Shown: in pieces, positions 10,498 through 61,540 of the stretch
Position numbering within the stretch: position 1 is the first letter of the stretch
Layout of the letters: every line of letters starts with the position of its first letter
Source: a virus
IMG/VR virus record: IMGVR_UViG_3300026382_000175
Coordinates: 1-64,000 of that record
DNA: 64,000 nt
Reading direction: 5' to 3' (one strand)
Program-made: the position numbers and the translations under genes
Notes under the pieces: generated by a model
What the model saw: the letters and a program-made list of their open reading frames with translations, nothing else
The model's database searches: none
What the model was told of the DNA's origin: nothing

Positions 10498-12432
10498 TTA
10501 GTATCCTAAGAGTAGTTTACTGAGTATTATAGTTTCTTCACTAGGTTTATCTTGAATGTAAGGTTGATTAGTATTATTCATAACTACTACTTGTTGAGGT
10601 TGGTTAGTATTATTACTAGCTAGATTAGTATTAATATCCTTATTTACTACTCCCCTATTTTCAGTAGGTTTTACTTGTATATCAAGGTTTAAACCTAACT
10701 GTTTAGCTTTAGGTAATAGAGTAGATAGTTGGTTAGAGTTATTAGCAATAGAGAGTACTCTAGCTATGTAGGATTTAGTTTCTCTAGGTAGTTCAGTAAA
10801 AGCTTTAGTAAAGTCTCCTCCATATTTAGTGTAAAGCTTCTTTACTTTACCTATACCATAGTTATAACTAGCTAATGCCCATCTAACATCTCCATTGAAC
10901 TGGGAAAGTAAGTAGGACATATATGCTTTCTGTGCCTCTAGCTGAGCTTTAGGGTTAGTTATATCAGGTATGTTTTCATACTTCAGTAAGTTAGGATTAT
11001 ACTTAGCATAGAACTCTTTCTTAGTCCAAACTTCTTTCCAAGTAGCAGGCATAAACTGAGCTAAACCAGTAGCTCCTACCCTAGATACTGCTTTAGGATT
11101 GAAGTTGGACTCTACCTTAATTTGAGCTAAGAGTAGCTTATCTAGGTTAGACTGGTTAGAAAATACCTCCTGAGATTTATCTATTTGGCCATTATGGGAA
11201 GTTCTACCCTTACTAAAGGGTTTAGTATTTAGAAGGTTAAATAAAGCTCCAAATGGCGTATATTTTAAGATTTTGTTATTCAGCCAATCTAAACCTTTAG
11301 CAACTTTCTCTTGAGATACTAAACCAAAGGTAAAGTCTGATACTACCTTAGCTCCTGCTGATTCTAATTTCTGTGCTAGTGTAGCATCCTTACCAAATAT
11401 CTTCTCAGCACTCTTAAATCCCTTATAAGCTGAGTAAGCTCCTAAAGCTAATGTTAAAGGTAAAGCTACCTTACCTAGTAACCCCTTACCTATATTAAGA
11501 ACTGTTCCTAACTTACTTACATTAGTAGCTGTTGAAACTATACCTCCAGTAGTAATAGGAGCTTTTAATCCAACTTTAGTTAAAACTTGAACTGCTTTAC
11601 TACCTAAACCTGTTTTGGATAGTACCCTACCTAATAACCTTCCTCCCTTACCTAATACCCTACCTCCTAATCCAAATATCTTATCTCCAAATAACTCTAA
11701 AGCAAAACCTAACTCAGGAGATATTCCCCAAACCTTTTGTTCTAAGTAGGTTTTAGCATACTCTTTAAAACCTCCTCCTGTTAAACCTTTGTAGAAGTTT
11801 TCTAGTTTAGAGAACAGCTGTTCTGGAGATAAAGGAGAAGTGGCTAGCTCAGATTTAGGATTAGCTATTACTTGGAACTTACTTTCTAAGTTGTAGAGGT
11901 TATCAGTAATCTTGTCTAAATCCTTTTCCCTTATTTTCTGTATTAGGGAAATAATTCTTTGTTTATCCTCATCAGAGCTGTTTAGCAAGTTAACTTCTTT
12001 CTCTAAGGTAGATTGAATCTCTTGTAGTAGCTCTTTATTAGATTGCTGAAGTTCTTTGTTTTGCTCTATGTAAGTTTTAATGGTTTCTAAGTAGGTTTTA
12101 AAGTCCTGTTGAAATACTTGCTTAATTGGTTCAGTTAAAACTTTACTATTCCAGTTCTGTAATACCTTAAGGAAAGGTTCAGCATTTAGCGTTACCTTAA
12201 CATCTTCAGGAATAGGTTTAGAGAGCTCTTTGATTAAGGTTTGAGTTTCCTCTTTAGTTAAAGACTTGGAGGATAGAAACCTAGTTAAAAGCTCTGATGG
12301 TAAAATAGGAGAGTAAGATAAAACTTTAGCAGTAGTTTGGGTTTGAATCTTGTTAAATGGAGATAGGACTACACTTTGTACTGGTTTTAGTAGTTTAGAT
12401 GAAACTGATTTGAGTTTATCTAGAGGGATCAT
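10498..12432 (-). CDS. Tail tape measure protein with C-terminal lytic transglycosylase domain
   Basis: This is a 644-residue protein. Residues about 100-190 are coiled coil. A central hydrophobic/glycine-rich stretch (about 240-345: GLGGRVLGKGGRLLGR, LPLTLALGAYSAYKG) is typical of tape measures. From about residue 430 there is a soluble lytic transglycosylase domain: QIKVESNFNPKAVS (catalytic Glu in VES), GATGLAQFMPATW, LASYNYGIGKV, and PRETKSYIARV. The chain is short for a tape measure, implying a tail of roughly 100 nm at about 1.5 A per residue; this estimate is inference. Linkers on both sides of the lysozyme domain carry DNA repeats found elsewhere in the window (11163-11230 and 10651-10680). 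The start overlaps the stop of the frameshifted chaperone extension. Confidence 0.85.
   Translation of the reverse strand: MIPLDKLKSVSSKLLKPVQSVVLSPFNKIQTQTTAKVLSYSPILPSELLTRFLSSKSLTKEETQTLIKELSKPIPEDVKVTLNAEPFLKVLQNWNSKVLTEPIKQVFQQDFKTYLETIKTYIEQNKELQQSNKELLQEIQSTLEKEVNLLNSSDEDKQRIISLIQKIREKDLDKITDNLYNLESKFQVIANPKSELATSPLSPEQLFSKLENFYKGLTGGGFKEYAKTYLEQKVWGISPELGFALELFGDKIFGLGGRVLGKGGRLLGRVLSKTGLGSKAVQVLTKVGLKAPITTGGIVSTATNVSKLGTVLNIGKGLLGKVALPLTLALGAYSAYKGFKSAEKIFGKDATLAQKLESAGAKVVSDFTFGLVSQEKVAKGLDWLNNKILKYTPFGALFNLLNTKPFSKGRTSHNGQIDKSQEVFSNQSNLDKLLLAQIKVESNFNPKAVSRVGATGLAQFMPATWKEVWTKKEFYAKYNPNLLKYENIPDITNPKAQLEAQKAYMSYLLSQFNGDVRWALASYNYGIGKVKKLYTKYGGDFTKAFTELPRETKSYIARVLSIANNSNQLSTLLPKAKQLGLNLDIQVKPTENRGVVNKDINTNLASNNTNQPQQVVVMNNTNQPYIQDKPSEETIILSKLLLGY
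10651..10680. repeat. C-run repeat copy R5 inside tape measure gene
   Basis: The plus strand reads CCCCTATTTTCAGTAGG and then a TTTTACTTGTAT tail. Copy R3 at 41936-41970 has the same core and a nearly identical tail (TTTTCCTTGTAT). In the protein it falls in the flexible linker after the lysozyme domain (PTENRGVVNKD), where sequence is little constrained. Confidence 0.6.
11163..11230 (-). repeat. Linker repeat L1, shared with the primase-polymerase gene
   Basis: Read on the minus strand, a 48-base stretch encoding KPFSKGRTSHNGQIDK matches 43558-43620, which encodes KPLGRGKKSDNGQIDK, at 41 of 48 positions by hand alignment. The similarity extends weakly on both sides and includes an AGGAGG downstream. 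Both copies sit in inter-domain linkers of unrelated proteins. Confidence 0.65.
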
Positions 12433-13267
12433 TTATCAGTCTCCTTAATAACAGCTAAGAGCAAGTTGAAATCTGGTAAAGTAAAGTTAGTTAGCTCAGT
12501 CCAGTTAAACCCTCTCTTTACTAGTAGGTAGAGGGATTTGAGTAGCTCTTTATACTTCTCTTTACCTACAAAGGGAGGAGTAACACCTCTGGTAAGAACT
12601 GGAATTCTTTAGAGCAGGACTTACAGGTTATAGTTTTAGGTTGTACTCCTACTTCACTAACCTTATCAGCAAAGGTTTCTATTAGTTGAAAGTCTTTTAG
12701 GGAAATTTCTTGTAGTAGCTTTATTACCTCTTGGATAGGTAAGGAAGAGGTTTCATATAGAGCAATAGTACCTAATAGCAGTTCAGTTTCATCAAAGTTA
12801 GGAGATAGTGAGGTAAACTCCTTTAACCTTCTTAGAGTAGGCAAACCAAAAGTAAAGTTCCCTACTCTTATAGGGTAGTCAAAATCAGGTTCTTTAAGAG
12901 CTATGTCCTCTGCTGTTAGTGTTACTGAGTTAGCATTATTACAGAATGGACACTCTACTGAGTACTTAAATATTGGGTTGTCTACTGATAAGGAATACCT
13001 AATTAAGGCTAAAGACTGAGCATCTATAAGAGTTAGTTCATTTAGGTCAAATATAGGTTGAGTAGTAATACCAGCTAAAACTACATCATACTTTTGCAGG
13101 TTGTCTAGAGTTGAAGAGGATAGGGTTAGGACATCTTTAACCTTGTAAGGTTGAACCTGTAAGGAAAACTGATAAGGGTACTGCTTACCTTTACTAGGTA
13201 GCTCAGTAGAGTTAAGGGTAACAAAACCTGTTTCAGGTTGAGTAGGTTGATTAAATTCAATCTTCAT
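12429..13267 (-). CDS. Predicted -1 frameshift product (GT-like), chaperone plus 46-residue extension
   Basis: A -1 slip on C CCT TTG at 12575-12569 would bypass the TAG and continue in the frame that reads VGKEKYKELLKSLYLL.. and ends at TGA 12431-12429, adding 46 residues to give about 279 in total. The extension frame lacks its own start codon with a ribosome site, opens only shortly before the slippery site, and stops inside the ATGA overlap with the tape measure start. All three points are expected for a gpGT-type fusion. The fusion itself is inferred. Confidence 0.65.
12566..13267 (-). CDS. Tape-measure chaperone-like protein (gpG/gp26-type) with zinc ribbon
   Basis: This is a 233-residue protein immediately upstream of the tape measure. 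It contains two cysteine pairs, VECPFCNN near residue 107 and TCKSCSKEF near residue 215, likely one zinc site. Helical segments follow (KLLQEISLKDFQLIETFADKV). Position, helical content and the overlapping -1 frame at its end match the G/GT chaperone system that guards the tape measure in many tailed phages; T4-type phages have the related gp26 family of Cys-containing hub proteins here. Its last codons form a slippery heptamer followed at once by TAG (12568-12566). Confidence 0.65.
   Translation of the reverse strand: MKIEFNQPTQPETGFVTLNSTELPSKGKQYPYQFSLQVQPYKVKDVLTLSSSTLDNLQKYDVVLAGITTQPIFDLNELTLIDAQSLALIRYSLSVDNPIFKYSVECPFCNNANSVTLTAEDIALKEPDFDYPIRVGNFTFGLPTLRRLKEFTSLSPNFDETELLLGTIALYETSSLPIQEVIKLLQEISLKDFQLIETFADKVSEVGVQPKTITCKSCSKEFQFLPEVLLLPL
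12569..12575 (-). promoter_or_regulatory. Slippery heptamer C CCT TTG for -1 frameshifting
   Basis: The heptamer fits X XXY YYZ exactly in the reading frame of the chaperone gene and is followed directly by the TAG stop. Both tRNAs keep good pairing after a -1 slip (CCT to CCC, TTG to TTT). The SD-like GGAGG sequences in this operon are not at the right distance to judge a stimulator. Confidence 0.65.
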
Positions 13268-13736
13268 TTAAGTCCTCTACAACTACTAAGTTTAGTATGT
13301 TTTGCTCTAACTGAGGTTCAGACTTACCTTCAAAGTATAAAGAAGAGTTAGGTAGCACTTTGAAGTTTTTCTCACTTAACTTAGTTAGTTCCTTACCTAC
13401 ATTAGAGTACTTGATTATCTTTAGTGGGAGAGCTCCTTTCTCAGGGAATAAGAACTTAAATCCTTTCTTTAGCCTCTTAGACCACTCTTCTAAGAATTTT
13501 TCAACCTCTCTTTTGTGAGTTTCGTAATAGGTAATTTGAATTTCCTTTACTAGGTAGTTGGATGGGATAGGATAGTTAAACCCTCCAACTTGTCTTATCT
13601 CTAGGTTGTAGGAAAAGATTAGCTCTCTCACCTCACTAACAATCCAAGGAGAGTAAGGGAAGCCTTGTAGATGGACTTCCCACTTAACAGAAGTAGATAT
13701 GTGAGGTAAATTATTCTTAAGCTCTTGAATGTTCAT
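13257..13736 (-). CDS. Tail tube-like protein, paralogue of the tube gene
   Basis: This is a 159-residue protein. Its start (LKNNLPHISTSVKWEVHL) aligns with that of the next gene upstream (VKQKLPHLYTPNKWRFQIV), and both share the remaining strand pattern (an 'IQITYYET' versus 'LTITFWQG' strand). It is probably a second tube-fold protein, such as a tube-initiation or tube-cap protein (T4 gp48/gp54-type role), or a minor tube. Its end overlaps the chaperone gene start by 11 bases. The tube fold is inferred from the paralogy. Confidence 0.6.
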   Translation of the reverse strand: MNIQELKNNLPHISTSVKWEVHLQGFPYSPWIVSEVRELIFSYNLEIRQVGGFNYPIPSNYLVKEIQITYYETHKREVEKFLEEWSKRLKKGFKFLFPEKGALPLKIIKYSNVGKELTKLSEKNFKVLPNSSLYFEGKSEPQLEQNILNLVVVEDLNED

Positions 13737-13740
13737 TTAA

Positions 13741-14286
13741 CTATCCCTTGTAATTTCTGAGATGGTAGTCATAGTCAATAGTAATAGTAAGCTGTGCAGG
13801 GTCTGCTTGCTGATCTCCTGTAAGTTGGCCTGAATCCATATCAGTAACCAGAGCTCCTATTACTGTAATCTCCCTAACTTCTTTAAGTTCATTAGAAGGG
13901 TCTAGTGAAATAAGCTTAAAGTCAAACTTAAGGTCTTCCCTGTTAGTAGTAGTTCCTTTTTCAGGATCTTCACTAGCATTAAATAGTCCCCAGAAGAACT
14001 GCTCAATCTTAAAGTCAACTCCTTGCCAAAATGTAATAGTAAGTTGACCTGAATAATCTACACTAGTTTGTTGCTTAATTTTGAAACCATGGACTTGGAT
14101 TTCTGAGTTGGTAGCAGTAGGTTTAGGAATGTCGTGAGTGTAGCATCTTAAGTCATAATCATTCCAGTCAATAGCAGGAAGTTCAACATTAGTAGCTTTA
14201 GGTTCTTTAACAATCTGAAATCTCCACTTGTTGGGAGTATATAAGTGAGGTAACTTCTGTTTAACATCAGCCATTGTCCAAGGCAT
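13741..14286 (-). CDS. Tail tube protein, gp19-like
   Basis: This is a 181-residue protein directly downstream of the sheath gene, the standard place of the tube gene in contractile phages. It is beta-rich with LRCYTHDIPKPTATNSEIQVHGF, VDYSGQLTITFWQG and an ending ADPAQLTITIDYDYH, which is the family's characteristic final strand. The start at ATG 14286 has AGGAGGA a few bases upstream. Size fits the gp19 family (about 140-200 residues). Confidence 0.8.
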   Translation of the reverse strand: MPWTMADVKQKLPHLYTPNKWRFQIVKEPKATNVELPAIDWNDYDLRCYTHDIPKPTATNSEIQVHGFKIKQQTSVDYSGQLTITFWQGVDFKIEQFFWGLFNASEDPEKGTTTNREDLKFDFKLISLDPSNELKEVREITVIGALVTDMDSGQLTGDQQADPAQLTITIDYDYHLRNYKG

Positions 14287-14302: not shown

Positions 14303-15931
14303 TTAAACTTGAGCAAGTATGTTAAGGTCTCCTCCAGTAGCAATAATACCAATAGTAAAGTCAATCCACTCTACAGACTTAACAGGTTTTACTGCTACTG
14401 GAACTCTCATAATGTAGTTGTCTATGTCTAGTGAAGTAGTAGCATCTCCAGGATAGAATACTTTGTAGTCGTAGAATGCTCCCCTTGCTTTGAGGTCTCT
14501 AAAGAGAGCATCCATACCTGAGTAAGCTAAATCCCAAGTTGTTTTATCATTAAGGTCAAAGATAAAGGACTCTAAGTACTCCTTACCTACTAGCTCAACA
14601 TAATTGAGGAGAAGTCTAACATTGATCCTATCTAGTGCTGAAAGGAATGGGTAAAGGGTCTTTTGTCCAAAGATTGCTAAACCTTTTCCTGGAGCAAACC
14701 TAATTGGGTTAATACCTTTGTCGTAGAGGAGACCCATTTCATTAACAGACATCCTTCTCCTTACATCTAAAGCAGTAAGGTAACCTCTCTTAAATCCAGC
14801 AGGAGGATACCAAGGATTGTAGTTAGCCCAAGTGTGAGCTATTACCTTACCAGCAAAGCAAGAAGGAGAGAGGTAAAGTGTATCATCTATGTCTGGGTTG
14901 TAAACCTTTAACCAGTTTCCATAAAGTCCAGCAAAGCTAGATAAGTCTCCTGATAGGGAAATTTGATTTTCCCTGTAATCAATAATTTGGGTTACATAGT
15001 TAGAGCTAGCTACATCTTCATAAGGAACTGATAGGGTAGCAAAGCTCCTTTTCTCCTGAGCTATTTCAGTTAGCTTTAGTGCATAAGCAGGATCTGCAAT
15101 ACCAAAGTCATTTATAACCTGATACTTATAAGTATCTCCTTTTAACCTCTCAATAGCCTTAATGTAATCTCCTGTGGTTACTGCTGAACCATCATCTCCT
15201 GCTCCTAAGCTAACAGGAGTAGAACCAGTGGATTGAAGCTTTTTACCAAAGTTCAGAGGGTTAACAAATCCTCTTATGTAAGCTGATTGCTTTAGTACTT
15301 GAGGGAGAAAGAGAGGTTTACCATTAAACTTAGCATTAGGGTCTGTACTTACATAAAACTCCTCTACTTTCTCTCCATTAACAAAAACTTCTATTAAGTC
15401 TGAGTTAGGTACCTTACCAGTAGCATCTAAGTTGGTAATCCTAATAGAAATTGAGTTACCCCAATGTCCAGGAGATTCAGCTATTATGTAAGCTACTATG
15501 TTGGAATCAGAGAACTCAGGTTGGTCTTCATCAGGATTAAAAGGTTCTCCTAAAGAGTCATAACCCAATATCTTGCTAACAGTCCAAGGAGAAGGTTGAA
15601 CAGGATTGCCATCTGTATCAGTAGTACCTTGAACAGGTATATCCATACCTGCAAATGTAATGTCATCGTGAGCTACCCTTACTAACCAAAGAGCAGACTT
15701 CTCTAATACTACTTCAGCTTCTAAGATAGTAGTAGAAAGACCTCTTTTATATCTTTTATCAGTAGGGAAGTATCTAGCTCTAAAGTAGTTAGTGTTAGGT
15801 ACAAATTGAGGGAGTAGAGAACCTCTAGGAGACTCTACTGCTCCAGCTTCAATAAATGTTTGAGTAATCTTAGGTTGGATAGATAAGTCTATTTCTCTAA
15901 GGTTTACTCCTGGTAGTCCTCCTAGTGCCAT
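14303..15931 (-). CDS. Tail sheath protein, gp18-like
   Basis: This is a 542-residue protein. The N-terminus (GGLPGVNLREIDLSIQP) resembles the opening of sheath proteins, which starts with a strand passed to the neighbouring subunit. The C-terminal part contains IRFAPGKGLAIFGQKTL (the usual 'N.ir...g.G...wG.rTl' element), RINVRLLLNYVE and a final segment VKSVEWIDFTIGII. Sheath and tube adjacency is conserved. It has one of the best ribosome sites in the region (GGAGGTTAAG before ATG). Confidence 0.9.
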   Translation of the reverse strand: MALGGLPGVNLREIDLSIQPKITQTFIEAGAVESPRGSLLPQFVPNTNYFRARYFPTDKRYKRGLSTTILEAEVVLEKSALWLVRVAHDDITFAGMDIPVQGTTDTDGNPVQPSPWTVSKILGYDSLGEPFNPDEDQPEFSDSNIVAYIIAESPGHWGNSISIRITNLDATGKVPNSDLIEVFVNGEKVEEFYVSTDPNAKFNGKPLFLPQVLKQSAYIRGFVNPLNFGKKLQSTGSTPVSLGAGDDGSAVTTGDYIKAIERLKGDTYKYQVINDFGIADPAYALKLTEIAQEKRSFATLSVPYEDVASSNYVTQIIDYRENQISLSGDLSSFAGLYGNWLKVYNPDIDDTLYLSPSCFAGKVIAHTWANYNPWYPPAGFKRGYLTALDVRRRMSVNEMGLLYDKGINPIRFAPGKGLAIFGQKTLYPFLSALDRINVRLLLNYVELVGKEYLESFIFDLNDKTTWDLAYSGMDALFRDLKARGAFYDYKVFYPGDATTSLDIDNYIMRVPVAVKPVKSVEWIDFTIGIIATGGDLNILAQV

Positions 15932-18549: not shown

Positions 18550-18741
18550 CTACATAACTGAATCTTTCCAATCTATTGCTAGTGTAGGGCAATTTTGGAT
18601 ACATAACCCACAATTTAAACAAGAGGATTCACTTGAACTAGAAAAGTGAGGGTAATCGTTAAGAATTTGAAAACAACCCATAGGACATTCATCTACACAG
18701 ATATAGCATTGAATACACAACTCGTAATCTATTTTTACCAT
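18550..18741 (-). CDS. Two-cluster [4Fe-4S] ferredoxin
   Basis: This is a 63-residue protein with two complete cluster-binding motifs: CIQCYICVDECP (Cys 9, 12, 15, 19) and CLNCGLCIQNCP (Cys 41, 44, 47, 51). Each has the C-x2-C-x2-C-x3-C-P form of bacterial-type 2[4Fe-4S] ferredoxins, and length (about 55-80) also fits. Zinc fingers do not show this Cys-Pro pattern twice. It lies between a zinc-ribbon protein and a small unknown gene in the major-capsid operon, with GAGG upstream of ATG 18741. A ferredoxin here is unusual: it could feed electrons to phage reductive enzymes or be a metabolic gene for an anaerobic or autotrophic host. Electron-transfer function is well supported by the motif; its partner is unknown. 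Confidence 0.88.
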   Translation of the reverse strand: MVKIDYELCIQCYICVDECPMGCFQILNDYPHFSSSSESSCLNCGLCIQNCPTLAIDWKDSVM

Positions 18742-18743
18742 TC

Positions 18744-19178
18744 CTATCCCTCTACCTCAACTTCTACTTCGCACTCTCCATCTTCCATAGCACAAAGAAC
18801 TGCATCTTCAGCAGTAGGATTGGACTTAAGTTGGAGTAGCTTAGCTATTGCATCTACTTTGTTAAGAGCTGAAAAGATAGGATTACCTTGCTCATCTACT
18901 AAATCAAAAGTAGGAGCATCTGAACCATTAAAAATAAGTTTAGCTTTTATAACTTTAGCTTCATTAGATTGTTCAGGCTCTTCTGTAGGTTGTTCTGGTT
19001 CTTGGTCATCTACCTTCCTAGTCATAGGAGTACCACACTTAGGACAATCATAATTAGAGCAAGGTATTCCCATAGGAGCTTCCATCTCATAACCACAGTT
19101 AGGACATACGCAAGTTTTAGTGGGGATTTCTATATCTAACTCCTCTAGTAGAGAAATTATTTCATGTATCTTTGCCAT
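18744..19178 (-). CDS. Zinc-ribbon/rubredoxin-like protein with acidic tail
   Basis: This is a 144-residue protein. Residues about 22-53 carry CVCPNCGYEMEAP..CSNYDCPKCGTPM, two CPxCG knuckles as in zinc ribbons and rubredoxins. A PEQ-rich linker and a beta domain follow, ending in an almost purely Glu/Val tail. It is the gene next to major capsid, separated from it by a terminator hairpin, and directly precedes the ferredoxin, so the two may act together. Zinc or iron binding is the safe inference. Confidence 0.6.
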   Translation of the reverse strand: MAKIHEIISLLEELDIEIPTKTCVCPNCGYEMEAPMGIPCSNYDCPKCGTPMTRKVDDQEPEQPTEEPEQSNEAKVIKAKLIFNGSDAPTFDLVDEQGNPIFSALNKVDAIAKLLQLKSNPTAEDAVLCAMEDGECEVEVEVEG

Positions 19179-57826: not shown

Positions 57827-60800
57827 ATGAACTCCAGATGTGAAATCTGTAAACTTTATAAGCAATGCAAGACTCACTTTGTTAAGCCCAGAGGTAATTT
57901 AGAAAATCCTAATATTATAATAGTAGGAGAAGCCCCTGGGTGTGTTTCTGGAGACACATTAATAGAAGTTGCTTTTAGGGATGTATCCAAATATCCAAAA
58001 GGAATACCTATAAGAGAGTTAGTGGGGAAGAAGGACTTTTATGTCTATTCTTATGATATTGAAAAAGATAGACTGGTTCTTGGGAAAGTTAAGAAGGTAT
58101 GGAAGACTGGAACGAAAATGACTTACAAGGTTACTTATAAGTGGAAAGCTGCTACTCAAGACGGTGAGGTGAAATGGTTTGAAGATTCTATTATTGTAAC
58201 TTCTAATCATAAGTTCTTACTTAAAAAAGCTAAACCAAAAGATCCGTTTAAAGGTATTAATACAAATGTGGAATATGAATACCTTTCTATTGATGAAGGG
58301 TTAACCGTAGGACATAGTATAATGCCATTCTACAGACGCTTTTATAGTGAAAGAGATAAGCGATACACTTTTATAGGTGTATCACATGACACTATGCAAC
58401 CAGAACATAAGTTCTTAATGGAGTTTTTAACTGGAAAAGATTTAGGAGGAAGAAAGTATAATGTCCATCATAAAGATGGAAATGGTTTGAATAATACTTT
58501 GGAAAATCTTGAAGTTCTTACTGTAGCTGAACATGCAAGGATTCACAAGTTAGAATCTAACCCTATGCACGACCCTGTTGTAAGAGAAAAACATAGGCAA
58601 GTTCTTTCTTCCAAAGAGTATAGGGAAAATATGAGTAGAATTATGAAAGAAAAGTTGAGGTCAGATAAAGAATTATATGAAAGAAGAGTAAAGCAACTTT
58701 TAGAAGCAGGTAAGAAAACAAGATTTAAGAAAGGTGAACTTGATCCTGTTAATTACTATAAAAGACTTCTTTCTTATGTGAGAAAAGGTAAGAGAACTCT
58801 AGAATGGGTAGAAGAGAGATTCAAATCTAAGTTTCCAGATTTACCATTTCCACCCATAGATAACCATATTATTGTTTCTATTGAACCTTATGGAGTGATA
58901 GATGTTTACGATATGGAAGTAGAAAAGTATCATAATTTTGTAGCTAATGGAATTATTATTCATAATTCCACTGAAGATAAGCAAGGGAAACCTTTTGTAG
59001 GTAAATCAGGTAAATTATTAGAAGAAGTATTTAGGCTCTTCAATAAGAAATTTGAAGAAGTTTGCTACATAACTAATGTAGTTAAGTGTTGTCCTTATGC
59101 AGACCTTTTTAATCCTAGTAAAGGAGTTAGGCCTCCTACTGATAAGGAAATAGAATGTTGCCTTCCTTTTCTGTTAGAAGAACTAGAAAAGTTTAAGGGT
59201 AAAGATGTCGTTATAATGCCTTTAGGTAATACTGCTTTGAAAGGATTAGGTATAAAAGGTAAGATTTCTGAGTTAGCTGGTAAAGAACTAAAGTGGAATG
59301 GGTTTAAGGTTATTCCTAACTTTCATCCTGCTTCTATTTTAAGGAACCCTAAGTGGAAGCAAAAGTTTATATCAGTATTTGGTAAAGTACTAGACAATAG
59401 GCAAGTGGAGTGGGAGAATTTAATTAAACCTTTACAACCTAAAGAAGCTATCAACTTTTTACAGAAGAAACTTGAGGAGAAACCTGAATGGTTTTGTTTT
59501 GATATAGAAACAGATGGACTTAATCCATTTAAAAATAGAATAATTATGCTTACTTTTTCATTTCCAAATGACCCTTATGGTTATGTAGTTCCTTTATATC
59601 AAAAAGACCCTTTACCAGGAGATAATTATGATGTTTTTAATGTTGTAGTAGATAATATTTCTAAGCAAAAGGTATTACAACTTACAAAACAGTTATTAGA
59701 AACTATTCCTGTTATTGGGCATAACATTAAATTTGATTTAAAATTTATGGTAACTAAAACAGGTTTGGATTTATCCAAAGTTAAAGTAAAAGACGACACA
59801 TTATTTTTAGCTCATTTTGTATTTAACAAGGTTCAACTTGGAGAGACTTTACAACTTAAAGACATAGCTGTTAAGGTATTAGGTTTAGATGGTAGATGGG
59901 ATGAAGAAGTTAAGGAATATTTAAAGTCAAGGTATCGTCTAAGGAAAGATAGACATTATGGAAATATTCCAACTTCTTTACTAATTAAGTATGCTGGATT
60001 TGATATTCTCTTTACTAAAGAGATTTATTTAGTGCTTTCTGAGAGAGTTAAAGTATTTAACTGTGACGAGATTAGGGAAGCTCTTAATAAGGCTACAATT
60101 ATGATAGCTGAATCTGAAATAAAAGGAGTTAAGGTAGATAAACAAGTTAGAGATTTTCTTGACTATAAATATCAGTCTGAAATAGAAAGAGCTGAAAAAG
60201 AGTTACAGGAATTACCTAAAATTAAGAAATGGAAAGAACTAAGAAAAGTATCTTGGTTTAATCCTTCTTCTCAAAAACATCAAAAGGAGGTAGCATTTAA
60301 AGTCTACCAATTACCTGTAGTAGAAACAACTCAAAAAGGACAGCCTTCTTTAGGTAAGAATGCTATTAACATATATTTCTCCTCTCTTCCAGAAGGTTCA
60401 GAAGAAAAACGATTTATAGAATTGTTTTACAGAATAAAACTTTTCAAAAAATTAAAGTCAACCTACATAGATGGATTTATAAGTAGTATAGACGACCTAG
60501 GGATGTATCATCCTGAATTCAACATAGCAGGAACAATAACAGGTAGATGGTCATCAGGATGGCATACTGTTGCATCAAAGTCCGACATTAAGAGAATGTT
60601 TGTTAGTAGGTGGAAAGATAAAGGAGGACTTATAGTTAGCTTTGATTATTCTCAGTTAGAGGTTAGAATTGCCTCAAGTCTTTCCAATGAAACTAAACTC
60701 ATAGAAGCTTATAAGCAAGGGATAGATGTTCATAAAAGAACTGCTTCTATGATATTTAATAAGCCTATGGAAGAGATTACTAAGCAAGAGAGGAAGATTG

Positions 60801-61540
60801 CTAAAACTGTTGTGTTTGGAATTCTTTATGGTAAAACAGCTAAGTCCTTAGCTGAGGATTTTAACATTAGCTTAGAGGAAGCTCAGCAATGGATGGATAA
60901 TCTATTTGGAGGTTACTCCAATCTTAGAAAGTGGATAGAGAATCAGCACAGGTTTGTTTTACAAAATGGTTTTGTTGTAACAGCATTCAATAGAATTATT
61001 CCAGTTCCAATGGCTTTTGAATCTGATAAGTGGAAGAAAGAGGAAGCTAAGCGTAAAGCTGTTAACTATCCTGTTCAATCCTCAGCTTCTGATTTAACTA
61101 CTACAAGTGCAGTTAGACTTTGGGAGAATATGAAAAAATTAAATCTGAAGTCTGTTCTTATAGGAACTGTTCACGATGCTATTGTTATAGATGTTTACCT
61201 TGGAGAGTTAATTACAGTTTTTAACCTTGTGATTAAAAATGCTGAAATAATACCTATGAAAAAATATGAGTGGTTAACTTGTCCTATTAGGATAGATGCT
61301 ACTATGGGAGATGGAAGCTGGTTTGGAGGAATAGAATGGGAAAGAAAAGTAGTTACTCCAGATTACCTTGAATTAGAAGGAACAGGATTTGTAAGAGATT
61401 TACTGATGTTTAAACAGTTAATGGAAATGAGTTATAATTTTGAATATGAAAAGATAGGTGAAGAAGAATTTAATGAACCCAGTCTTGATCAGTTTATTTA
61501 CTCCCCTAAGAAAGAAGTATGGAGGGTTAAAATTTGGTAG
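57827..61540 (+). CDS. UDG-(intein)-3'-5' exonuclease-family A DNA polymerase fusion
   Basis: This 1,237-residue precursor becomes about 895 after splicing. UDG family 4 part (residues 1-38 and 381-545): CEICKLYKQC, GEAPG then STEDKQGKPFVG, TNVVKCCP, FHPASILR, with Fe-S cysteines. The intein occupies 39-380. Exonuclease: CFDIETDGL (about 560), IGHNIKFDLKF, YAGFDILFT. Polymerase: motif A DYSQLEVRIA (about 939), motif B RKIAKTVVFGILYGK (about 995), motif C TVHDAIVIDV (about 1115). The 5' nuclease domain is absent; it is the separate gene at 54905. UDG-like N-termini are known in SPO1-type phage polymerases, but here the UDG residues look complete, so uracil could be removed or read by the polymerase itself. 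Confidence 0.92.
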   Translation: MNSRCEICKLYKQCKTHFVKPRGNLENPNIIIVGEAPGCVSGDTLIEVAFRDVSKYPKGIPIRELVGKKDFYVYSYDIEKDRLVLGKVKKVWKTGTKMTYKVTYKWKAATQDGEVKWFEDSIIVTSNHKFLLKKAKPKDPFKGINTNVEYEYLSIDEGLTVGHSIMPFYRRFYSERDKRYTFIGVSHDTMQPEHKFLMEFLTGKDLGGRKYNVHHKDGNGLNNTLENLEVLTVAEHARIHKLESNPMHDPVVREKHRQVLSSKEYRENMSRIMKEKLRSDKELYERRVKQLLEAGKKTRFKKGELDPVNYYKRLLSYVRKGKRTLEWVEERFKSKFPDLPFPPIDNHIIVSIEPYGVIDVYDMEVEKYHNFVANGIIIHNSTEDKQGKPFVGKSGKLLEEVFRLFNKKFEEVCYITNVVKCCPYADLFNPSKGVRPPTDKEIECCLPFLLEELEKFKGKDVVIMPLGNTALKGLGIKGKISELAGKELKWNGFKVIPNFHPASILRNPKWKQKFISVFGKVLDNRQVEWENLIKPLQPKEAINFLQKKLEEKPEWFCFDIETDGLNPFKNRIIMLTFSFPNDPYGYVVPLYQKDPLPGDNYDVFNVVVDNISKQKVLQLTKQLLETIPVIGHNIKFDLKFMVTKTGLDLSKVKVKDDTLFLAHFVFNKVQLGETLQLKDIAVKVLGLDGRWDEEVKEYLKSRYRLRKDRHYGNIPTSLLIKYAGFDILFTKEIYLVLSERVKVFNCDEIREALNKATIMIAESEIKGVKVDKQVRDFLDYKYQSEIERAEKELQELPKIKKWKELRKVSWFNPSSQKHQKEVAFKVYQLPVVETTQKGQPSLGKNAINIYFSSLPEGSEEKRFIELFYRIKLFKKLKSTYIDGFISSIDDLGMYHPEFNIAGTITGRWSSGWHTVASKSDIKRMFVSRWKDKGGLIVSFDYSQLEVRIASSLSNETKLIEAYKQGIDVHKRTASMIFNKPMEEITKQERKIAKTVVFGILYGKTAKSLAEDFNISLEEAQQWMDNLFGGYSNLRKWIENQHRFVLQNGFVVTAFNRIIPVPMAFESDKWKKEEAKRKAVNYPVQSSASDLTTTSAVRLWENMKKLNLKSVLIGTVHDAIVIDVYLGELITVFNLVIKNAEIIPMKKYEWLTCPIRIDATMGDGSWFGGIEWERKVVTPDYLELEGTGFVRDLLMFKQLMEMSYNFEYEKIGEEEFNEPSLDQFIYSPKKEVWRVKIW
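57941..58966 (+). mobile_element. Intein with HNH homing endonuclease in the UDG active-site loop
   Basis: The intein is 342 residues. Splice block A: Cys 39 in CVSGDTLI. Block B: IIVTSNHKFLL (TxxH type). Blocks F/G: VIDVYDMEVEKYHNFVANG then IIHN before Ser 381 of the extein. The endonuclease is HNH: NVHHKDGNGLNNTLENLEV and AEHARIHK near residues 210-245. Removing it restores GEAPG-STEDKQGKPFVG, an exact UDG motif. All splicing residues look intact, so it should splice. Confidence 0.93.

Follow-up and report, generated by a model that had tools for sequence, protein, structure and literature searches.

A tail gene block with overlapping frames

The window is the whole 64,000-nucleotide stretch of viral DNA analysed, from IMG/VR record IMGVR_UViG_3300026382_000175. 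Its minus strand carries, in this order, genes for a tail sheath, a tail tube, a 159-aa protein, a protein that we call G and a tape-measure-like protein of 644 aa. The features of this block are:

14303–15931, minus strand: tail sheath protein (PHROG 23, E 1.2e-44; PF17482)
13741–14286, minus strand: tail tube protein (PHROG 45, E 1.5e-11)
13257–13736, minus strand: 159-aa protein with no assigned function, between tube and G
12566–13267, minus strand: G gene (TAC-N), 233 aa, PF12322, ending LLLPL and stop
12584–12589, minus strand: GAGGTG, Shine-Dalgarno-like, 8 nt 5' of the heptamer; possible stimulator, by inference
12569–12575, minus strand: slippery heptamer C_CCT_TTG, directly 5' of the stop
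12566–12568, minus strand: TAG, stop of the short form
12429–12569, minus strand: T extension, open in the −1 frame; CCC TTT is followed by 46 codons and TGA
12446–12441, minus strand: AAGGAG, likely ribosome-binding site of the tape-measure gene, inside T
10498–12432, minus strand: tape-measure-like protein, 644 aa, with an SLT transglycosylase domain

G matches the PF12322 (T4_baseplate) profile with 44.2 bits against a cut-off of 24.5 (E 2.4e-11), and T4-like sheath, capsid and protease genes adjoin its locus. We infer from position and PHROGs hits that the SLT protein (12432–10498) is the tape measure. The overlapping G and T frames sit between the tail tube and tape-measure genes, as in systems of the G/GT type. 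The gap from G to the tape-measure gene is 133 nt, compared with −11 to 21 nt for the other gaps from sheath to baseplate in this block; gaps of 121–276 nt are present elsewhere in the window. Several relatives have a gene of similar size at the place of the 159-aa protein.

Among the head-tail genes, the window also encodes a 63-aa ferredoxin-like protein with two 4Fe-4S motifs (18550–18741, minus strand; PF00037, E 1.9e-13), adjoined by a zinc-ribbon protein with a weak HypA match (18744–19178). A single 1237-aa ORF (57827–61540, plus strand) combines intein splicing, HNH endonuclease, uracil-DNA glycosylase, 3'-5' exonuclease and family A DNA polymerase domains, with the intein apparently at the glycosylase domain.

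A slippery heptamer at the G stop codon

Read on the minus strand, the G gene ends GAG GTG TTA CTC CTC CCT TTG TAG. The initial annotation of this DNA had placed C CCT TTG in frame just before the TAG, and positions 12575–12566 read exactly so. It had also described a −1 frame that adds 46 residues and overlaps the tape-measure start. This too is borne out: the frame runs CCC TTT GTA GGT ... GAT AAA TGA, and its stop (12431–12429) overlaps the tape-measure start (12432) as ATGA. The −1 frame is open from 40 nt 5' of the G stop to 137 nt 3' of it. As had been noted, the extension lacks its own start; ATG and GTG are absent, and the sole TTG is at index 48 of 60 codons. The window hence combines a slippery X_XXY_YYZ in the G frame with a −1 frame that is open to the next gene and has no early start. 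Within 33 neighbouring genes (8567 codon pairs), 22 in-frame XXXYYYZ heptamers were counted; G is the only one of these genes in which such a heptamer occupies the final two codons.

The −1 extension is conserved in a second record

Searches of viral contigs with G alone, and with the tail tube alone, found no relatives. A capsid-protein search of viral contigs led to four further contigs, of which L038 has the closest tail block (68% identity to the window in the sheath, 65% in the tube and 38% in G). Its G gene ends ATC CCT TTC TAA, placing the core C_CCT_TTC_TAA at the same stop position. The initial annotation had tied its reading to the overlap frame being kept in relatives, and in L038 the same −1 extension is found, identical to T of the window at 23 of 47 positions (E 7e-16). 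The first ATG, GTG or TTG in this frame is at index 38, past much of T. Over the 47 codons, the two T regions differ at 17, 10 and 23 first, second and third codon positions, respectively, with dN of 0.37 and dS of 1.13. The other two frames contain 5–8 stops; as no more than 50 of 141 bases differ in the DNA, their translations are still similar (16/47 and 18/47 identical). The bias in codon position, the excess of dS over dN and the stops in the other frames indicate that the −1 frame codes for protein in both records, and by these measures T is under purifying selection. The −1 form was met in these two metagenomic records only.

RNA structure 3' of the heptamer was not unusual relative to shuffled sequences, either in three stretches of the window (z of −0.20, 0.16 and −0.07) or in two stretches of L038 (z of −1.18, a slight advantage with 26 of 200 shuffles as good, and 0.33). 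An Rfam search gave just two matches, both at chance level. The Shine-Dalgarno-like GAGGTG of the window is absent at that place in L038, and hence we do not claim it as a conserved stimulator.

Most relatives carry a putative +1 site at the same joint

We collected relatives of G from named phages and from searches of virus and genome contigs. Seventy-four loci were classified; removal of 22 that share the last 40 G residues with an earlier locus, and of two that are cut, left 50, among which the near-copies EP_H11 and IME392 (96%) count as two. Thirty-four of these have TTT_CGT and five TTT_CGC, in frame and close to the 3' end of G; in all 39, T is open in the +1 frame. A CCN proline codon precedes the site in 38 of the 39 and AAA in the remaining one. 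Two relatives have variant sites (CCC_TTT_CAA, CCC_TTT_TTC), and seven have a run of six or seven Ts with an open +1 (= −2) frame, although L035 is cut downstream. L038 is the sole −1 case and L036 the sole relative with no extension. The window and L038 have no +1-type TTT_CGN site; T lies in their −1 frame and the +1 frame is closed. In most of the +1-type relatives looked at, a long gene at the place of the tape measure follows T.

In 25 of these genes the phenylalanine codon at the site is TTT, compared with 194 of 331 phenylalanine codons elsewhere in the same genes, where CGT makes up 46 of 255 arginine codons; the site is defined by TTT, so that the TTT count is partly by construction, which is not so for the CGT count. 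Given this codon usage elsewhere in the same genes, the +1-type site is under constraint on its bases and not only on the protein. In relatives with TTT_CGT, the G frame continues for 7–27 codons 3' of the +1 site. This stretch (e.g. in L030, L025 and L023) is open and conserved, with a motif R-I-x-F-G, and is absent from the window and L038; its being open and conserved suggests that the DNA here codes in two frames.

Loci L079, L080, L081, L084, L085, L086 and L035 form a PF12322-like clade with a six- or seven-T run near the G end. The candidate sites CCA_TTT_GGG in L081 and CCG_TTT_GGC in L086 were dropped, as a seven-T run is the likelier site in both. The long open +1 (= −2) frame of this poly-T clade suggests another type of recoding.

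The PF12322 chaperone gene of Thermus phage phiLo (MH673673.1, 133584–134330; L012:2085-2831) is annotated 'DNA methylase', and its +1 extension after CCG_TTT_CGT carries no annotation. Some 28 kb separate it from the sheath gene; the other named relatives, those in which a sheath is annotated nearby, do not show this arrangement.

Relationship of the −1 and +1 forms

At the joint, the T frame of the +1 type reads Pro-Phe and then mostly Val, compared with Pro-Phe-Val in the window and Pro-Phe-Leu in L038. T of the window resembles +1-type T domains of L037 (E 3e-4 as a single comparison, shuffle z 5.5), L034 (shuffle z 5.2) and phiLo (z 4.5), and in pairwise shuffle tests against it 10 of the 24 +1-type T domains gave p > 0.05. 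A profile of the 24 did not pick out T of the window or L038 from 3346 decoy peptides. It did weakly better than shuffles, 16 of 1000 of which were as good for the window and 100 of 1000 for L038. With hhalign, the +1-type profile matched −1 T with E of 0.059 (global) and 0.013 (local). A common origin of −1 T and +1 T is thus suggested by position, joint, length and pairwise scores, and not by a profile E-value.

Relative to the +1-type genes, the window has one extra base before CCC and lacks the C that a +1 ribosome would skip. We built a tree of 41 rows (38 of the 50 loci, the window, gp26 and gp51). In it, the window and L038 form one clade (100/100) that has the +1-type L034 as its neighbour (93/80) and falls within the +1 group, and the poly-T genes form their own clade (99/94). 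This placement makes a switch from +1 to −1 in the lineage of the window and L038 likely; we go no further than likely because support for the L034 fork is incomplete and a long branch leads to the −1 pair. From the sequences, this family seems to arrive at a single product through frameshifts of opposite direction at the same joint.

Tail blocks can also be compared among phages with related capsids. L037 and L040, whose last 40 G residues are the same, and L039 have a +1-type block. The capsid protein of L039 is 97% identical to that of the window in the matched part, its sheath is 34% identical, and its chaperone block belongs to the other recoding type. Such a similar capsid beside a tail block of the other type points to a sharp exchange of modules, with tail blocks of the two recoding types passing among related phages.

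Predicted fold of the G protein

Across an alignment of 18 G proteins, four cysteines (C106, C109, C215 and C218) show conservation of 90% or more. An AlphaFold model built from the 18 sequences has a pLDDT of 88.7 and a pTM of 0.86. Foldseek found no match to it in the PDB at E ≤ 0.001; among predicted viral proteins 55 matched, several of them named baseplate hub. A PDB sequence search with the G alignment gave nothing at E < 0.5. With a second structural aligner, 677 PDB chains were compared. For residues 9–97, the best chain was the HK97 tail assembly chaperone 2OB9 (Z 5.9, rmsd 3.7 over 75 residues) and the second YqbN 3KLU (Z 4.3, rmsd 4.5 over 83 residues), both with Z below the value of 8 that the tool's note regards as safe. 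In the accessible part of one paper (PMC9603447), a chaperone was identified by DALI with the same two structures, at Z of 4.5 and 4.4. Residues 102–233 matched zinc-finger chains (ZitP, NrdR).

On the strength of these regional matches, G in the model appears to consist of a chaperone domain and, C-terminal to it, a zinc ribbon with two CXXC halves flanking a helical insert, and the cysteines suggest that it binds zinc. A T4-like setting with a zinc-type G had been proposed from the outset; the PF12322 match, the four conserved cysteines and the neighbouring T4-like sheath, capsid and protease genes all agree with it.

A probable frameshifted chaperone and its alternatives

The locus very probably codes for a tail assembly chaperone that exists in a short and a long form, owing to a −1 shift at C_CCT_TTG. 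The conserved frame, the family and the gene order support the G/GT chaperone logic originally proposed for it, and the fold match, at a Z below the safe value, is compatible with it. Most ribosomes would stop at the TAG and yield G alone, the short form (TAC-N). In a minority, tRNA-Pro and tRNA-Leu would slip by −1 from CCU and UUG to CCC UUU, and translation would go on to join G to the 46-residue T domain (TAC-NC); the adjacent stop codon perhaps helps slippage. If both tRNAs slip in tandem by −1, the G-frame codons would determine which residues stand at the joint, giving Pro-Leu-Val in the window and Pro-Phe-Leu in L038. By analogy with lambda, G would coat the tape measure and the T part would recruit tail tube subunits, after which both would leave. 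The shifting of ribosomes, its rate and the binding of the products are what we infer.

T might instead be no part of a fusion but a small protein of its own, made by termination and reinitiation at the G stop. The G stop lies within the T frame, coupled initiation is common in tightly packed phage genes, and EP_H11 has an ATG in the T frame at the G stop. Against this, a reinitiating ribosome would find its first T-frame ATG, GTG or TTG past much of T in both −1 records (index 48 of 60 in the window, 38 in L038), and the conserved slippery core would be left without explanation, so we regard reinitiation as very unlikely. A slightly smaller chance attaches to T being reached by some recoding other than −1 slippage at the heptamer, namely +1, −2 or slippage of the transcript. 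Relatives do use +1 or poly-T sites, but in the window and L038 the +1 (= −2) frame stays open for just 4 nt from the first base of the stop codon, and there is no homopolymer longer than three at the joint, which makes transcript slippage unlikely. A +2 shift formally gives the same frame as −1; we know of no precedent for one.

The least probable account is that the −1 frame is an artefact, through an indel error or gene decay, the true gene being a G-T fusion or G alone. Both records are metagenome-derived, and one extra base before CCC would fuse the frames. An error would nonetheless have had to strike L038, a different sequence on another contig, at the same codon pair; T shows the marks of purifying selection; and from a +1-type site two separate length changes would be required. 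A −1 shift at the heptamer hence remains our reading of the window.

Comparison with known tail chaperones and recoding sites

The PF12322 profile recovers T4 gp26 (8.8e-64) and gp51 (3.9e-52), placing the G protein of the window in the same family as both. T4 gp26 can be aligned to G as far as the joint, where it ends; gp51 is ∼48 residues longer, at the place of T, so that its extra tail is laid out as in GT relative to G. In sequence the C-terminus of gp51 is only weakly similar to T, with a shuffle z of 4.5 against T of L038 and 2.4 against T of the window. The +1-type T profile found nothing there (699 of 1000 shuffles as good), and when five gp51 tails were compared by hhalign with the pair of −1 T domains, E was 1.8e-4 and the probability 49. 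In T4, gp26 and gp51 are separate genes on opposite strands, whereas the record of the window has a single PF12322 match in 80,914 bases (the record may be incomplete), and so does not show the T4-type form with two genes. Tandem genes before the tape-measure place in L002 (10820-12610) and L010 (352-2106) were considered as a T4-style pair; only the first of each matches PF12322, in L002 below the family cut-off, and they are possibly a two-gene chaperone pair of this style.

A 2022 Virology paper on T4-like chaperones reportedly proposes a mechanism other than frameshifting. A review in NAR, in the part available, describes the tail-gene frameshift as widely conserved except in T4. The accessible text of the PRFect preprint describes some T4-like phages with a short gene and a longer fusion gene and no frameshifting, and that of PMC12846349 mentions polyT shift signals in T4-like chaperone genes, credited to the 2022 Virology paper. 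It may be that frameshifting has already been published for some PF12322 phages, perhaps with reference to the poly-T clade seen here. In the literature searched, as far as those texts were accessible, we found no report of a TTT_CGT site or a −1 site in the PF12322 family. What appears new is a T4-type chaperone that would be made by recoding and has apparently switched direction.

T4 is the stated exception to the conserved tail-gene frameshift, and relatives of its chaperones appear to recode. Because recoding would take at least two directions at a homologous joint, interconversion between the two-gene form of T4 and recoded forms becomes testable. We lean, by a modest margin, towards a broader reading: one family would have four routes to the long chaperone (+1 at UUU_CGU, poly-U, −1 at C_CCU_UUN just 5' of a stop and, in T4, a second gene), and the lineage of the window would have switched from +1 to −1 with the CCCUUU core and the joint kept, so that selection would hold the fused product and not the decoding trick. 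If so, T4's apparent exception would be one more solution to the same need.

The +1-type chaperones, among them those of Thermus phage phiLo, Escherichia phage EP_H11, Rhizobium phage RHph_TM39 and Vibrio phage GR7B, share with the window the family, the CCN-TTT joint and a related T domain, and most +1-type chaperones also share the order tube, X, G, T and tape measure. They differ in having T in the +1 frame after CCN_TTT_CGT, whereas T of the window is in −1. UUU_CGU is the core of the influenza A PA-X +1 site UCC_UUU_CGU (PMC8310308, in the part available). The relatives' site, and not that of the window itself, has this core and the same +1 direction; virus and gene are unrelated, and the likeness is presumably convergent. 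The relatives thus offer a large natural set of phage sites with PA-X-like UUU_CGU cores for the study of +1 frameshifting in bacteria.

HK97 gp13 (2OB9) and YqbN (3KLU), the best fold matches of G, are about half its length and have no detectable sequence similarity to it. Lambda gpG and gpGT, in the accessible literature, are like the products predicted for the window in being a short and a long chaperone from one gene, made by −1 slippage near its 3' end, and according to a review, available in part, they act on the tape-measure protein. Lambda gpG differs from G of the window in lacking the zinc-ribbon-like part with four cysteines, and we claim no likeness between the two from sequence.
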